A stretch of 64,000 nucleotides of DNA from Nitrosophilus alvini (lineage in GTDB: Bacteria > Campylobacterota > Campylobacteria > Campylobacterales > Nitratiruptoraceae), in the NCBI RefSeq assembly GCF_015100395.1, contig NZ_AP022847.1, positions 186,001 to 250,000 of the forward strand. The letters run 5' to 3'. Numbering within the stretch: position 1 is the stretch's first letter; each line of letters opens with the position of its first letter. Shown piece after piece: positions 45,513-52,509 of this stretch. Under the pieces are notes generated by a model that made no database searches, had not been told where the DNA came from, and saw nothing but the letters and a program-made list of their open reading frames with translations. The position numbers and the translations under genes are program-made.

Positions 45513-45743
45513 ATGGTTAGATACGATTTGAGACATTTGCATGATAATTTTTATGACAGGATGTTGGAGCTTTTGGAAAAAGAGGTAAAACCAGAAGAGG
45601 TTGCTATATTTCTTTTTGAAATTGGAGATTTTTCTCCTATCCAGAAAAGTGCAGATCTTATAAAAGAGGCCGGCCATGAGCTCTTGAACTCTTTGAAGTT
45701 CAATGAAGTGGACTGGACTATAGTTGTAAGAAGGAAGAAATAG
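45513..45743 (+). CDS. NuoE-like small complex I protein of Campylobacterota
   Basis: 76 residues. It occupies the nuoE position but lacks the thioredoxin-like [2Fe-2S] fold and has no cysteines at all, so it cannot carry cluster N1a. The sequence (MVRYDLRHLHDNFYDRMLEL, ending VDWTIVVRRKK) resembles the small proteins found at this place in Campylobacter and Helicobacter nuo operons. It overlaps the next gene by one base. Its role is probably structural or in docking the electron donor; this is inference. Confidence 0.8.
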   Translation: MVRYDLRHLHDNFYDRMLELLEKEVKPEEVAIFLFEIGDFSPIQKSADLIKEAGHELLNSLKFNEVDWTIVVRRKK

Positions 45744-47743
45744 TGAGCAGAGTCTATTTTTCCTGCTGGCGGGATGAATTTATAGACAACCGCGGTAAAC
45801 CGGCCGATGAGTGGACAGAATCATCTTTCAATTTTCCGGAGCATTACAACGTTGACAAAAAATCCAAAGCGTTCATAGGATGGGACGGTTTTGCTATCTT
45901 TGAAGAAGGTGTCGATGTAGTAAGACTAGCTACCGAATATGCCGCACAATATCAGGAATATTCTGAAGCCTGCGGAAGATGTGCGCCGGGTAGATGGGGC
46001 GGCAGGATACTATATGATCTTTTTGACAAAATAGCCAGAGGAGAGGGAGAGGTAAGTGATCTTGAACATCTAAAAGAGGTTTCCAGAACCATGATGGAAA
46101 CGAGTAAATGTGAAATCGGTAGAACAGTACCGAAACCTCTTTTGGATATTATGAAGTATTTTCAAGATGAAATTTTGGAACTTATAAACGATAAAAAGCC
46201 CTCACCTGATTATGACAAGAAATGCGACTATATAGCAAAAGTTACAGCACCCTGCATGGATGCCTGTCCTTCACATGTGGATATTCCGGCATATATCGAG
46301 GGTGTAAGAGACCTCAGATTTGACGACTCTTTGCAGGCTACAAGAAAAACCATGCCTCTGGCACATACCTGCGGCAGAGTCTGTCCACACCCTTGCGAAG
46401 ACGCGTGCAGAAGAACGAATCTTGACGAGCCAATATCGATTATGGAGCTCAAAAGACTCGGAGCCGATTTTGAGGATGACCACGGTCTTTACTGGCTTCA
46501 TCCCAAAAAACAGAAACCTTTGACCGATAAAAAAGTTGCTATTATCGGAGCCGGCCCCGCAGGACTTGCAGGAGCCTATTATCTTGCTTTGGAAGGTATA
46601 AGGTGTGATATTTTTGAAGAGCTTCCGGTTCTTGGCGGCGAAGTGGCTGTGGGGGTTCCCGAGTACAGAATGCCGGTAGAGAAATACAATAAAGATATAG
46701 AAGCTGTAAAAAGCCTTGATGGTGTAAATATATATACAAATACAAGAGTTGATGCGGATATGATGAGAAAGTTTGAAAAAGAGTATGACGCTATTCTCAT
46801 CGCAACCGGTACTAGAATATCCAAAAAAGTGAGAGCAAAAAACGAAAGAGAAGAGATAAAGGGCTACTGGCCGGCTATCAAATTTCTTGATGAGATAAAT
46901 CTATATGTAAAATATGGCATAGGTGAACCTGTTGATCTCACCGGTAAAACGGTTGTCTGCGTGGGAGGCGGATTTACCTCTATGGACGTTGTAAGGTGTT
47001 CTGTCAGAGCAAATGCCAAAAAAGTAATTATGCTTTATAGAAGAGATGAAGCTACAATTATAAGAAACACCACATACGAAGAGTATCATGAAGCGGTAGA
47101 AGAGGGTGTTGAGTTTATCTTTTATTCCGCAGTCGAAGAGATAATTACAGATGAAAACGATCAGCTAAAAAAACTTAAAATCAATAGATTCGAACTTGTT
47201 CCCGATCCTAACGGAGGAAGACCGCAGCTCGTAAAAATCGAAGGTGCGGATTTTGAGATAGAGTGCGACTATCTTATACCTGCAGTAAGCCAGAGTGCAG
47301 ACCTTTCGCATCTGCCAGAGGAGTGGGAGATAGAGCTTACAAGCTGGGGAACAATAAAAACGGACGGCAAAACCTATATGTCCAGTAGAAAAGGAGTATT
47401 TGCCGCGGGAGATTGCGAATACGGGCCTATGACTATTGTAAATGCCGTAGGACAGGCGAAAAGAGCCGCATCGGTAATGGCAAGATATGTACTAACCGGT
47501 GAGGTGACTTTGACAGATGAAGAGATAATGGAAGATCATTTAAGAGCGCTCAAAGTCTATGACAAGAAAGAGAAGATCAAAGGATGGCTTCCGGGACTTC
47601 CAAGGGCTGTGAGTGAGAAGCTAACTGTAGAAGAGAGAAAAGATAATAACAAAGAGGTAAATTTGGGGCTTACTCAGGAGCAGGCAATCGCTGAAGCCGA
47701 ACGATGTATGAGATGTTACTATATAGCTATGGTCGCTGTATAA
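45743..47743 (+). CDS. NuoF-tail/GltD-like flavoprotein in the nuoF position
   Basis: 666 residues. Residues 1-150 match only the C-terminal iron-sulfur part of NuoF: EACGRCAPGRWGG (Cys77, Cys80, third ligand replaced by Gly83) and Cys123; the FMN/NADH-binding domain is missing. Residues 160-666 are a GltD-like unit: N-terminal cysteine clusters (CMDACPSHVDIPAYI, CGRVCPHPCEDACRR), FAD motif GAGPAG (269-274), NAD(P) motif VGGGFTSMD (about 407-415), FAAGDCEYGP and a C-terminal CMRC. It could oxidise NAD(P)H, or exchange electrons with ferredoxin, and feed NuoG. GTG start. Confidence 0.88.
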   Translation: MSRVYFSCWRDEFIDNRGKPADEWTESSFNFPEHYNVDKKSKAFIGWDGFAIFEEGVDVVRLATEYAAQYQEYSEACGRCAPGRWGGRILYDLFDKIARGEGEVSDLEHLKEVSRTMMETSKCEIGRTVPKPLLDIMKYFQDEILELINDKKPSPDYDKKCDYIAKVTAPCMDACPSHVDIPAYIEGVRDLRFDDSLQATRKTMPLAHTCGRVCPHPCEDACRRTNLDEPISIMELKRLGADFEDDHGLYWLHPKKQKPLTDKKVAIIGAGPAGLAGAYYLALEGIRCDIFEELPVLGGEVAVGVPEYRMPVEKYNKDIEAVKSLDGVNIYTNTRVDADMMRKFEKEYDAILIATGTRISKKVRAKNEREEIKGYWPAIKFLDEINLYVKYGIGEPVDLTGKTVVCVGGGFTSMDVVRCSVRANAKKVIMLYRRDEATIIRNTTYEEYHEAVEEGVEFIFYSAVEEIITDENDQLKKLKINRFELVPDPNGGRPQLVKIEGADFEIECDYLIPAVSQSADLSHLPEEWEIELTSWGTIKTDGKTYMSSRKGVFAAGDCEYGPMTIVNAVGQAKRAASVMARYVLTGEVTLTDEEIMEDHLRALKVYDKKEKIKGWLPGLPRAVSEKLTVEERKDNNKEVNLGLTQEQAIAEAERCMRCYYIAMVAV

Positions 47744-47752
47744 AGGCAGGAA

Positions 47753-50026
47753 ATGATTAAATTTTATATAGACGGAAAAGAAGTCACTGCTAATAAAAAC
47801 GAAACTATTTTGGAAGCAGCAAGAAGAGAGGGTATATATATTCCCACAATGTGCTATCTTCCCAAAGTAAAACCTATAGCATCATGCAGACTCTGTGTGG
47901 TGGAAGTGGAAGGAGTAGAGGGGTTTGTTCTAAGTTGTCAGACACCACCTACTACAGGTATAAAAGTAAAAACGAACTCCAAAGAGCTTTATTCACACAG
48001 ACAGAATATAATGAAACTGTATGATGTGAACCATCCACTGGAATGCGGAGTTTGTGACAAGAGCGGGAATTGTGATCTGCAGAATAAAACTCTGGAATTC
48101 GGGGTTGACACTCAGGATTTCAGTGCAAAAGATCAGCCCAGAATCATTAAAGACTGGAAATTTATACAATACGATCCTTCCCTTTGTATTCTATGCGAAA
48201 AGTGTGTTCATACATGTAACGAAGTGATCGGTGATGATGCGATAGAGATAGAGTTTGGAGGATATAAATCTCATATTGTTGTTAAAGAGGGCGAGACGCT
48301 CGATTGTACTTTCTGCGGCGAATGTATTGCGGTATGTCCGGTCGGTGCTATGATTAGCCAGGATTTCAAATACAGTGCAAATGCATGGGAGTTGACAAAA
48401 ATCCCGGCATCCTGTGCCCACTGCAGTGCAGCATGTCATCTGTACTATGAAACCAAACATGAAGGCTGTTTTGATAAAAACTCTCCTGCTATATACAGAG
48501 TGACAAATGATTACGAATTTACAAATCTGTGCGGGGCTGGTAGATTTGGCTACGATTTTGAAAACAGAGCCCAAAAGGATGAAAAGGCTTTTGGCGATGC
48601 GATAGAGGCGTTCAAAAAAGCGGACACTATAAGATTTTCAAGCTATATAACAAACGAAGAGGCTTTGATACTTCAAAAACTCAAAGAAAAATTCGGATAT
48701 AGACTCGTAAACGAAGAGGCTAAAAAATATAGAGATTTTCTTAGTGAATTTTCAAAAACAAGCGGCTCAAGCCTTTATAGCGGATCGCTTGAAGATATTA
48801 AAAGAAGCGACTATATCATAATTTTCGGAACAAGGATAGCTACAGACAATCCGGCTGTCAGATATGCCGTTACAGTCGCCTCCCGAAAACAGAGCAGCGA
48901 AGTTGTATATATGCATCCTATGGAGGACGAGCTTCTTAAAAACGTAGTAACAAAATTTGTCAAATACGAAGTGGGAACAGAAGAGGGCGTCATGGCCCTT
49001 GTTGCAGATGCGTTTATAGATGAAGATGCCAAAAACAGCATAGATAAAGAGTGGTTTGATGCTTTGGATATCGGTTACATAAGTGCAGAGTCAAATGTTG
49101 GCGAAGAAGAGATAGAAGAGATACTCAAAAAGTTTAATAGAAAAAGAAGACTTCATAGGAAAAACTTTACATTTGTAATCGGCGAGGATCTCTACACTCA
49201 TCCGAGGGCTGGGAATATAGCGAGACTTGCGGGTTTGATAGAGAGGTATACAGATTTTAAAGTGGTATTGGTTCCTCCGAAGACGAACAGTTTGGGAGTA
49301 TCTTTGATATGCGATCTAGATGATGAGGCCGGAGAGTACGTGATAGGATACAACGCTCCGGGAGACTTTGTACTGAGCGCTCTTGGAGAGGGTGATTTGG
49401 ATATGCCTGCACTGAACCAGCAAGAAGGCACCTTTACAAATATAGACAAAAGAGTCGTACCGACAAACGTTGCTCTTCCATATGAGGGGTATGTACTGAA
49501 CGATATAGCCAGAGCGCTAGGAGTAAGTGATAAAGAGTATACGGTAGAGTTTACAAAAGAGCTACCTGAAGAGAAGGGATATAAGAGAGTAGATTTTGAT
49601 TCTTTGCCGAACCATTATACAAATGCGGGCGAAGAGGTGAGAGGATATGTGATAGAGCCGAAACTTACGGAAGCTGAAAGTAAAATCGAAGAGATAGAGG
49701 AGCTACCGGAGTTTAACGGCACAATTATATACAGATGTGAGCCTGTACTGCAGTTCAGTCCTTTTACCAACAAAGCGCATCAGCTGAGTAGTACAGGTGA
49801 GCTTACAGGTTCGAAACAGTTTGCAATAGCTGCAAAACTGCAAGATGGCGACAAAGTGATCATAAGAAGCAGAAACGGTGAAATGCAAAGAGTGTTTAGA
49901 ATCGATACAGACCTCAAAGGTACGGTTGCTCTATGCCCAACCTTTGATATTGACTTAAGTTATTTTTATGTACTATCGGATTACCGTTATGAAGCTGTAA
50001 AAATAGAAAAAGTGGGCGAGCTATGA
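47753..50026 (+). CDS. nuoG: NADH-quinone oxidoreductase subunit G, first copy
   Basis: 757 residues. All N-terminal cluster motifs of NuoG are present: [2Fe-2S] cysteines (CYLPKVKPIASCRLC, then SC), HPLECGVCDKSGNC, CILCEKCVHTC, CTFCGECIAVCP, and the additional CAHCSAAC (N7-type) site. The molybdopterin-oxidoreductase-like C-terminal part follows. Two segments (48528-48778, 49179-49789) are almost identical to the next gene while the remainder differs. The gene overlaps the second copy by four bases (ATGA). Confidence 0.95.
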   Translation: MIKFYIDGKEVTANKNETILEAARREGIYIPTMCYLPKVKPIASCRLCVVEVEGVEGFVLSCQTPPTTGIKVKTNSKELYSHRQNIMKLYDVNHPLECGVCDKSGNCDLQNKTLEFGVDTQDFSAKDQPRIIKDWKFIQYDPSLCILCEKCVHTCNEVIGDDAIEIEFGGYKSHIVVKEGETLDCTFCGECIAVCPVGAMISQDFKYSANAWELTKIPASCAHCSAACHLYYETKHEGCFDKNSPAIYRVTNDYEFTNLCGAGRFGYDFENRAQKDEKAFGDAIEAFKKADTIRFSSYITNEEALILQKLKEKFGYRLVNEEAKKYRDFLSEFSKTSGSSLYSGSLEDIKRSDYIIIFGTRIATDNPAVRYAVTVASRKQSSEVVYMHPMEDELLKNVVTKFVKYEVGTEEGVMALVADAFIDEDAKNSIDKEWFDALDIGYISAESNVGEEEIEEILKKFNRKRRLHRKNFTFVIGEDLYTHPRAGNIARLAGLIERYTDFKVVLVPPKTNSLGVSLICDLDDEAGEYVIGYNAPGDFVLSALGEGDLDMPALNQQEGTFTNIDKRVVPTNVALPYEGYVLNDIARALGVSDKEYTVEFTKELPEEKGYKRVDFDSLPNHYTNAGEEVRGYVIEPKLTEAESKIEEIEELPEFNGTIIYRCEPVLQFSPFTNKAHQLSSTGELTGSKQFAIAAKLQDGDKVIIRSRNGEMQRVFRIDTDLKGTVALCPTFDIDLSYFYVLSDYRYEAVKIEKVGEL
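48528..48778 (+). repeat. Near-identical block A, shared with 50867-51117
   Basis: A 251-base segment in the first nuoG matches 50867-51117 in the second with about five differences. It begins at the CGAGRFGYDFENRAQKDEK coding region and ends abruptly at SSLY. Flanking sequence diverges strongly on both sides, which is the pattern left by gene conversion. Confidence 0.9.
49179..49789 (+). repeat. Near-identical block B, shared with 51668-52278
   Basis: A 611-base segment in the first nuoG matches 51668-52278 in the second with about 13 differences, mostly silent. It starts at GEDLYTHPRAGN and ends at NKAHQLS, with abrupt loss of similarity outside. Confidence 0.9.
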
Positions 50027-52509
50027 GTGAAAAAATAAAAATTACTATTGACGGAAAAGAGTGCGAAGCTACGGCCGGTGAGTATGTTCTTAACATTGCG
50101 CGTGCCAATGATATATTCATACCTGCTATATGCTATCTGACAAACTGTTCGCCAACGCTTGCGTGCAGGTTATGCCTTGTGGAAGCTGACGGAAAACAGG
50201 TATATGCCTGTAATGCCAAGGCAAAAGATGGTATGAATATCGTAACCGTTACGGAAAACATCATTGAAGAACGCCGCGCCATAATGGAAGTTTACGATGT
50301 AAACCATCCGCTCCAGTGCGGAGTTTGCGACCAGAGCGGCGAATGTGAGCTTCAAAACTACAATCTCGAAATAAAAGTCGACGAGCAGCATTATGCAATC
50401 AAAGATGTGCACAGACCCGCTAAAAACTGGAATTTTATAAAATATGATCCGGGTCTTTGCATCGTATGCGAAAGATGCGTTACAGTTTGTAAAGATATGA
50501 TAGGCGATGCAGCTTTGAAAACTGTTCCCAGAGGCGGAGATAAGCTTCCAAAAGAGCTTAAAGATGAGATGCCTAAAGATGCTTATGCTATGTGGAACAA
50601 ACTGCAAAAGTCTCTTATCGGAGCGGTTGCGGGAGAAGAGCTCGACTGTACCTGGTGCGGAGAGTGTATATCGGTATGTCCTGTTGGAGCACTTGTAAGC
50701 AGCGACTTCCAATATACTTCAAACGCATGGGAACTTAAATCAACGCCTGCTTCATGCGCCCACTGCAGCGCCGCATGCCATCTCTATTACGATATAAAAC
50801 ACACTTCTATTGACAATCCTGAACCGAAAATATACAGAGTAAAAAATGAGTGGAACTATGTCTCTTTGTGCGGGGCTGGGAGATTTGGCTACGATTTTGA
50901 AAACAGAGCCCAAAAGGATGAAAAGGCTTTTGCCGATGCGATAGAGGCGTTCAAAAAAGCGGATACTATAAGATTTTCAAGCTATATAACAAACGAAGAG
51001 GCTTTGATACTTCAAAAGCTCAAAGAAAAATTCGGATATAGACTCGTAAACGAAGAGGCTAAAAAATATAGAGATTTTCTTAGTGAATTTTCAAAAACAA
51101 GCGGCTCTAGCCTTTATGGCGGTGACCTGAAGTCAGTTCATAATGCAAACTTTGTCATCTCGGTCGGTACGGCTTTGAAAAGCGACAATCCAAGAGCAAG
51201 ATTTGCCTTCAACAACTCAGTGAAAATGAATAAGGGTGCCGGTCTTTATTTTCATCCGGTAAAGGACCCTGTTATCGAGGGAATTGGCAAAAATGTTATG
51301 GCTATAGCCCATAAGCCCTTAAAAGAAGAGGCTGTTATGTATCTGCTTCTTGATCTCTTTGCCGATAAAGAGAAGCTTCCAGAAACCACTGCAAAATATC
51401 TTGAAAGCTTTCATTCAATCGTAAAAAAAGAGATAGAAGAGACGATAAAAGAGAAGGTGAAAGAAAAAGTTGTCAAGAAGATAAAAGATGAAGAGACCGG
51501 TGAAGAGAGAGAAGAGGAAGTTGAGGTTGAAAAACTTGTTCCAAAAAAAGTGAAAAAAGAGATAGAAGTAGATCACAACGCGCTTCTTGATATGGTAGAT
51601 GCTTCTGAAGACTTTATGGAAAAACTTCAGAAAATGCTTGCAAAAAAAGACAGTTTTGCACTGATCCTCGGCGAGGATCTCTACACTCATCCGAGGGCTG
51701 GGAATATAGCGAGACTTGCGGGTTTGATAGAGAGGTATACAGATTTTAAAGTGGTATTGGTTCCTCCGAAGACGAACAGTCTGGGCGTATCTTTGATATG
51801 CGATCTAGATAATGAGGCCGGAGAGTACGTGATAGGGTACAACGCTCCGGGAGACTTTATACTGAGCGCTCTTGGAGAGGGTGATTTGGATATGCCTGCA
51901 CTGAATCAGCAGGAGGGCACCTTTACAAATATAGACAAAAGAGTCGTACCGACAAACGTTGCTCTTCCATATGAGGGGTATGTACTGAACGATATAGCCA
52001 GAGCGCTAGGAGTAAGTGATAAAGAGTATACAGTAGAGTTTACAAAAGAGCTACCTGAAGAGAAGGGATATAAGAGAGTAGATTTTGATTCTTTGCCGAA
52101 CCATTATACAAATGCGGGCGAAGAGGTGAGAGGATATGTGATAGAGCCGAAACTTACGGAAGCTGAAACCAAAATCGAAGAGATAGAGGAGCTACCGGAG
52201 TTTAACGGCACAATTATATACAGATGTGAGCCTGTTTTGCAGTTCAGTCCTTTTACCAACAAAGCGCATCAGCTGAGTGAACAGGGCGGACTATATGCCT
52301 CCAGGGCGTTTCTCGAAGAGCATGGGCTTGAGCCCGGTGACAAGGTTGAAGTAGCAGGAAAAGAGTGCGAAGTTACCGTTATGGTAAAGCTTGATGATAA
52401 GATTGACGGAAACATCGCATATCTTTCTACATTTGACAAAAACATAGATGTTGAAAAGCTTTTTGCTGCCGGGTACAGGTTTGCAGAAGCAAATATAAAA
52501 AAGGTGTAA
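50023..52509 (+). CDS. nuoG: NADH-quinone oxidoreductase subunit G, second copy
   Basis: 828 residues. It has the same order of cluster motifs as the first copy (CRLC, HPLQCGVCDQSGEC, CIVCERCVTVC, CTWCGECISVCP, CAHCSAAC), all ligands retained. Two insertions distinguish it: about 25 residues before the CTWC motif and a highly charged Lys/Glu helix (about residues 465-520) before the DSFALILGEDLY segment. Both NuoG copies could be alternative subunits or be present together; the sequence does not decide. Confidence 0.95.
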   Translation: MSEKIKITIDGKECEATAGEYVLNIARANDIFIPAICYLTNCSPTLACRLCLVEADGKQVYACNAKAKDGMNIVTVTENIIEERRAIMEVYDVNHPLQCGVCDQSGECELQNYNLEIKVDEQHYAIKDVHRPAKNWNFIKYDPGLCIVCERCVTVCKDMIGDAALKTVPRGGDKLPKELKDEMPKDAYAMWNKLQKSLIGAVAGEELDCTWCGECISVCPVGALVSSDFQYTSNAWELKSTPASCAHCSAACHLYYDIKHTSIDNPEPKIYRVKNEWNYVSLCGAGRFGYDFENRAQKDEKAFADAIEAFKKADTIRFSSYITNEEALILQKLKEKFGYRLVNEEAKKYRDFLSEFSKTSGSSLYGGDLKSVHNANFVISVGTALKSDNPRARFAFNNSVKMNKGAGLYFHPVKDPVIEGIGKNVMAIAHKPLKEEAVMYLLLDLFADKEKLPETTAKYLESFHSIVKKEIEETIKEKVKEKVVKKIKDEETGEEREEEVEVEKLVPKKVKKEIEVDHNALLDMVDASEDFMEKLQKMLAKKDSFALILGEDLYTHPRAGNIARLAGLIERYTDFKVVLVPPKTNSLGVSLICDLDNEAGEYVIGYNAPGDFILSALGEGDLDMPALNQQEGTFTNIDKRVVPTNVALPYEGYVLNDIARALGVSDKEYTVEFTKELPEEKGYKRVDFDSLPNHYTNAGEEVRGYVIEPKLTEAETKIEEIEELPEFNGTIIYRCEPVLQFSPFTNKAHQLSEQGGLYASRAFLEEHGLEPGDKVEVAGKECEVTVMVKLDDKIDGNIAYLSTFDKNIDVEKLFAAGYRFAEANIKKV

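Follow-up and report, generated by a model that had tools for sequence, protein, structure and literature searches.

Repeated gene conversion over a fixed internal block of the tandem nuoG paralogues of Nitrosophilus alvini and its relatives

The complex I operon of Nitrosophilus alvini contains two adjacent NuoG genes, nuoG1 and nuoG2, and we conclude with high confidence (a probability of roughly 0.93) that these are ancient tandem paralogues subject to repeated gene conversion over a fixed internal segment, block B, and more rarely over a second segment, block A. As documented below by comparisons among related genomes, the blocks follow the history of the genomes, silent sites included, the exchange evidently recurred after related species had split, and its edges are nearly constant.

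Organization of the complex I locus

The window, the 64,000-nucleotide stretch of DNA analyzed here, spans positions 186001–250000 of a single-contig 1.8 Mb genome (labelled G000 in the comparisons). The operon reads nuoA, nuoB, nuoC, nuoD, nuoX, a flavoprotein gene, nuoG1, nuoG2, nuoH, nuoI, nuoJ and onwards, and the reading frames of nuoG1 and nuoG2 overlap by 4 nt (Table 1). Like the NuoG of Campylobacterota represented by NCBIfam PRK08493, both genes pass the model cut-off and keep the cluster ligands; the differences are that the window has two copies in tandem, and that G1 is paired with a GltD/NuoF-like flavoprotein. Some relatives, in contrast to the tandem pair of the window, carry a single NuoG, which is of the G2 type. 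All of the N1b, N5, ferredoxin-type (N4) and N7 ligands are found in both window proteins and in most relatives, in agreement with the first-pass annotation, in which both copies were said to retain every iron-sulfur ligand. The eight cysteines of a two-cluster ferredoxin region are kept in both (window positions 48185–48340 and 50455–50700), together with the N7 ligands, whereas the NuoG of the Thermus type has a single N4 set. An AlphaFold2 model of NuoG1 built from nine sequences has a mean pLDDT of 60 and is of poor quality across the Fe-S domain and in places within block B; a fold search with it confirmed the NuoG/formate-dehydrogenase fold and nothing more.

Table 1. Features of the nuoG locus and NuoY-position proteins of relatives. 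Plain coordinates are window positions; those preceded by a locus label refer to that locus.
Feature	Coordinates	Strand	Remarks
nuoX-like small subunit (76 aa)	45513..45743	+	PF16514 NADH-UOR_E, 141 bits
Flavoprotein in nuoEF position (666 aa)	45743..47743	+	fusion of the NuoF C-terminal 4Fe-4S domain with a GltD/NfnB-like NAD(P)H oxidoreductase
nuoG1 (NuoG, 757 aa), copy paired with GltD/NuoF-like flavoprotein	47753..50026	+	NCBIfam PRK08493, 946 bits; Pfam Fer2_4, NADH-G_4Fe-4S_3, Fer4_Nqo3
nuoG1 N-terminal Fe-S domain, not homogenized; carries N1b, N5, the 8-Cys ferredoxin-type region and the start of N7	47753..48517	+	58.7% nt identity to nuoG2
Block A, nuoG1 copy (251 nt)	48528..48778	+	98.0% identical to 50867-51117
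nuoG1 inter-block segment, paralogue-specific	48782..49162	+	45% nt identity; paralogue split, support 100
Block B, nuoG1 copy (611 nt)	49178..49788	+	97.9% identical to 51667-52277
nuoG1 tail, paralogue-specific	49789..50026	+	47% nt identity; paralogue split, support 100
nuoG2 (NuoG, 828 aa), copy retained in single-NuoG relatives	50023..52509	+	NCBIfam PRK08493, 1231 bits
Block A, nuoG2 copy	50867..51117	+	98.0% identical to 48528-48778
Block B, nuoG2 copy	51667..52277	+	97.9% identical to 49178-49788
NuoY-position protein	L068:1065-1907		shortened NuoG1 C-terminal domain
NuoY-position protein	L067:1150-2019		shortened NuoG1 C-terminal domain
NuoY-position protein	L064:1425-2159		shortened NuoG1 C-terminal domain
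NuoY-position protein	L066:1223-2026		shortened NuoG1 C-terminal domain
NuoY-position protein	L069:1312-2022		shortened NuoG1 C-terminal domain
NuoY-position protein	L071:4390-5214	-	shortened NuoG1 C-terminal domain

Two near-identical blocks in divergent genes

A maximal-segment scan of the codon alignment gave exactly two near-identical blocks, with 5 differences in block A and 13 in block B, and thereby reproduced the 251 and 611 bases at about 98% identity first described for the pair; the sharp edges and the divergence of the N-terminal domain and inter-block segment were likewise recovered, identity outside the blocks being 45–59%. The longest run identical between nuoG1 and nuoG2 is 136 nt, and none longer than 41 nt arose in 2000 permutations of the variable sites. 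Block A starts at the edge of the N7 domain (...LCGAGRFGYDFENR) and spans the first part of the molybdopterin-fold domain, so that the initial portrayal of the blocks as a C-terminal scaffold is right only in part. At four-fold degenerate sites the window copies match at 22/24 positions in block A and 78/82 in block B, compared with 14/44 in the N-terminal domain; the high agreement within the blocks places the identity at the DNA level, beyond what protein conservation would give.

Phylogenetic grouping of the gene segments

The tandem pair was compared across 52 genomes of the same order, including that of the window, and the segments fall into two patterns. First, G1 and G2 are separated by one split with support of 100 in each of the trees for the N-terminal Fe-S domain, inter-block segment and tail. 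Secondly, the block B tree has at least 12–13 switches between G1 and G2, and throughout the window's family the G1 and G2 copies of the same genome group together; a single G1 clade for block B is rejected (AU p 4e-49, log-likelihood difference 578). The first-pass annotation had proposed comparing orthologues, anticipating grouping of the blocks by genome and of the remainder by paralogue, and for block B, the N-terminal domain, the inter-block segment and the tail this is what is seen; paralogue-wise clustering throughout, which it had named as evidence to the contrary, is rejected by the same AU test. Block A is a short region and its tree is poorly resolved. AU tests of the donor copy favour neither gene for either block: trees in which the homogenized block joins G1 or G2 fit equally well (AU p 0.28 and 0.31).

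The trees also bear on whether the C-terminal half was recently duplicated, with the remainder of each gene drawn from different sources, since a single fusion event of this kind could give a mosaic of near-identical and divergent segments. However, the G1 and G2 clades of the inter-block and tail segments span nine families with support of 100, placing both genes at full length and already distinct in the common ancestor, and the shuffling would need to have happened anew in every species; we therefore give such an origin very little credence.

Recurrence among related genomes

Within genomes, nine of the ten same-family pairs are 94.8–99.5% identical in block B (the tenth, G018, at 78%), and in a first, cleaner alignment the copies of G001, G004, G007 and G008 match at every one of 603 nt. 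Between the window genome and its relatives the same block is about 69–74% identical, a level like that of the remainder of the gene. Sites at which both copies agree within a genome but differ between genomes (genome-informative) greatly outnumber paralogue-informative sites in block B, at 61 versus 3 for G004/G008, 27 versus 3 for G001/G007, 132 versus 2 for G003/G007, and 103 versus 2 for G006/G002. In the inter-block segment of these four pairs the counts are 0–7 genome-informative versus 97–161 paralogue-informative sites (0 versus 133 for G004/G008), and paralogue-informative sites also prevail in the tail, the reverse of block B. Because each genome has block B changes common to both of its copies, exchange must have continued after these species split.

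Strong purifying selection on the protein, with no exchange of DNA, is an alternative source of such likeness: both blocks contain conserved residues, and in families that do not convert, the two copies resemble each other somewhat more in block B than in the inter-block segment and tail. Yet in several genomes the copies agree at every four-fold site (71/71, 77/77, 86/86 and 84/84) while the same sites vary widely between species, and the block sequence tracks the genome and not the paralogue; selection of this sort is thus a most improbable explanation.

The edges of block B are near-constant across species, from about G1 residue 470–476 to 672–681, where the paralogues are 40–50% identical. 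Block A behaves differently. Its two copies are near-identical in the window genome and G003 alone, and 68–86% identical in other family members; its conversion is therefore sporadic, and two blocks are not a general rule. The original claim of recurrent conversion in two blocks consequently stands for block B, where all genome pairs that were checked show it, and for block A in few genomes.

Outside the window's family, the copies in G055 are 99.0% identical in block B and 90% in block A, G022 has a separate shorter tract of 365 nt with one difference, and in G048 the broken-off end of the G1 contig shares 125 identical nt with the G2 contig. Conversion thus arose in at least four families, namely that of the window and three others separately. 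Other families with a tandem pair have block B identities of 44–72%, a longest run of 37 and no recent exchange, and as most other families are unconverted, a functioning pair does not depend on conversion.

Assembly of the repeated blocks

Assembly collapse had been named at the outset as an outcome that could overturn the pattern. Here the reads of one copy would have been assembled into both so that the blocks look alike, and draft assemblies are indeed prone to errors at such repeats, as in G014 and G005, whose nuoG genes are chimeric. In eight drafts of the family the nuoG1 match ends at a contig end, at residue 289, 306, 327, 500, 522, 531, 532 or 672, and all eight breakpoints lie inside block A (residues 259–342) or block B (residues 473–679), as is expected for a repeat. 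However, the window comes from a single-contig genome in which the two copies differ at 18 positions within the blocks, and in six other genomes of one or two contigs block B is 98.5–99.5% identical between the copies; moreover, artefacts shorten the pair or make it chimeric, and do not yield lineage-specific substitutions common to both copies in related species. Collapse is accordingly a negligible prospect, and it is excluded for the family since complete one- and two-contig genomes carry the same pattern. We note that locus L043 of G014 has one gene with a G1-type N-terminus and inter-block segment and a G2-type tail, the other gene being missing, and that L037 of G005 has a G2-type inter-block segment within G1; these chimeras may be errors that the repeat provoked during assembly, or else genuine recombinants.

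Mechanism and the position of the edges

Gene conversion, as non-reciprocal recombination between copies in tandem direct repeat, would proceed by pairing through RecA-type homologous recombination, a step for which we identified no particular machinery or site. Tracts would end where the paralogues are too diverged to pair, or where a swap harms function, and each homogenization would renew the identity and make the next exchange likely. If G1 serves a second electron input attached to G2, as proposed below, the Fe-S, inter-block and tail parts would stay distinct, while the core of the shared molybdopterin-like domain could be swapped without cost.

The first-pass annotation supposed that the scaffold is homogenized while the electron-carrying domains specialize, and the data fit such a selective account; the edges do not demand it, as conversion limited to segments that already match would yield the same ones. 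That the conversion is real but its fixed edges reflect recombination mechanics, with low similarity stopping the tracts, and not specialization of the Fe-S domain, is a serious contender against which we lean only slightly. The edges of block B are indeed nearly constant and lie in sequence of low identity, and high identity, once reached, sustains further exchange. Against this, the N-terminal domain, whose baseline is close to that of unconverted block B (about 53–65% compared with 44–72%), is homogenized in none of the 52 pairs, which hints, though not decisively, that selection opposes exchange in that domain.

Gene conversion is well known to drive concerted evolution among bacterial paralogues, e.g. 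the tuf genes and rRNA operons. As in those systems, nuoG copies within a genome are closer than orthologues between species, silent sites included; unlike them, homogenization is limited to internal blocks of functionally distinct paralogues, and the flanks remain paralogue-specific across the order. A search of the open literature, which was not exhaustive and may have missed a prior report, found none of tandem or converted nuoG. The process itself is familiar, and what appears to be new is that two distinct respiratory subunits are homogenized only in part, with fixed boundaries, throughout a family.

The flavoprotein and a proposed second electron input

The flavoprotein gene adjoins G1 across the order, at every locus with an intact G1 and upstream sequence present. 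The interval between nuoD and nuoG1 holds only nuoX and the NuoF 4Fe-4S/GltD-like fusion, and a complete NuoE or NuoF with an FMN/NADH site, as the canonical NADH-dependent input module would have, was not found in it. A GltD-like flavoprotein coupled to a NuoG-like protein is also seen in StnC of the Sporomusa-type Nfn, NsoC, and SfrB/SfrA (PMC7483475). The window resembles these systems in having both parts, but here they are two separate genes inside a complex I operon, the flavoprotein has the NuoF C-terminal cluster domain, and a second NuoG lies alongside. The NuoE/NuoF-like subunits of electron-bifurcating StnABC/Nfn are absent from the operon stretch examined, while the GltD-like and NuoG-like parts are present. 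The single-NuoG genomes examined have an N-domain of the G2 type, and we infer that G2 is the core NuoG; the arrangement suggests that G1 and the flavoprotein form an added module through which electrons from NAD(P)H (or a low-potential source) enter a G2-based complex I.

NuoY as a putative remnant of NuoG1

The complex I of C. jejuni is flavodoxin-dependent and contains NuoX and NuoY (PMC6682613, PMC4178425), and its NuoX has a counterpart in the window too. Six genomes lacking both the flavoprotein and an intact G1 encode NuoX followed by a protein of 237–290 aa in the NuoY position (Table 1); from their gene order and NuoX, these single-NuoG genomes are taken to be those of Campylobacter-/Helicobacter-type bacteria. 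All six proteins match a profile of the G1 C-terminal domain (E 1e-21 to 2e-58), with the G2 profile worse in every case, and an hhalign comparison with that domain gives a probability of 100, E 7e-44, and 40% identity over 251 columns. They differ from NuoG1 in having no Fe-S domain and missing most of block B. When four of them were compared with Pfam and NCBIfam, no Pfam family reached its cut-off and the match to the NuoG model was far below its own. The best reading of these profile matches is that G1 was reduced to NuoY in lineages that use flavodoxin. In G032 (L065/L113) the flavoprotein is absent, G1 is a 466-aa protein without the Fe-S domain, and nuoX and nuoG2 are intact; this genome is possibly an evolutionary intermediate. 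A derivation of NuoX as a remnant of the flavoprotein N-terminus was considered and rejected, as the two have no similarity and NuoX is also a separate gene in the window.

Taken further, free-living Campylobacterota may have a complex I in which two NuoG proteins stand in series, a core NuoG2 and a bolt-on NAD(P)H module of NuoG1 and flavoprotein. The flavodoxin-dependent complexes of the Campylobacter/Helicobacter type would derive from it once the flavoprotein and the Fe-S domain of NuoG1 had been lost, NuoY being what remains of NuoG1. We regard this larger scheme as evenly balanced between true and false; if it is true, the repeatedly converted block is the interchangeable core common to both NuoG proteins.

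Implications

The tandem nuoG genes constitute an order-wide natural experiment on the segments of a respiratory subunit that paralogues can exchange and those that they cannot, with the same boundary used in separate lineages. In practical terms, nuoG-based trees, annotation and draft assemblies in these bacteria will err in the converted region. Finally, the comparison provides a testable account of how NuoY, an unexplained subunit of the Campylobacter-type flavodoxin-dependent complex I, may have originated.
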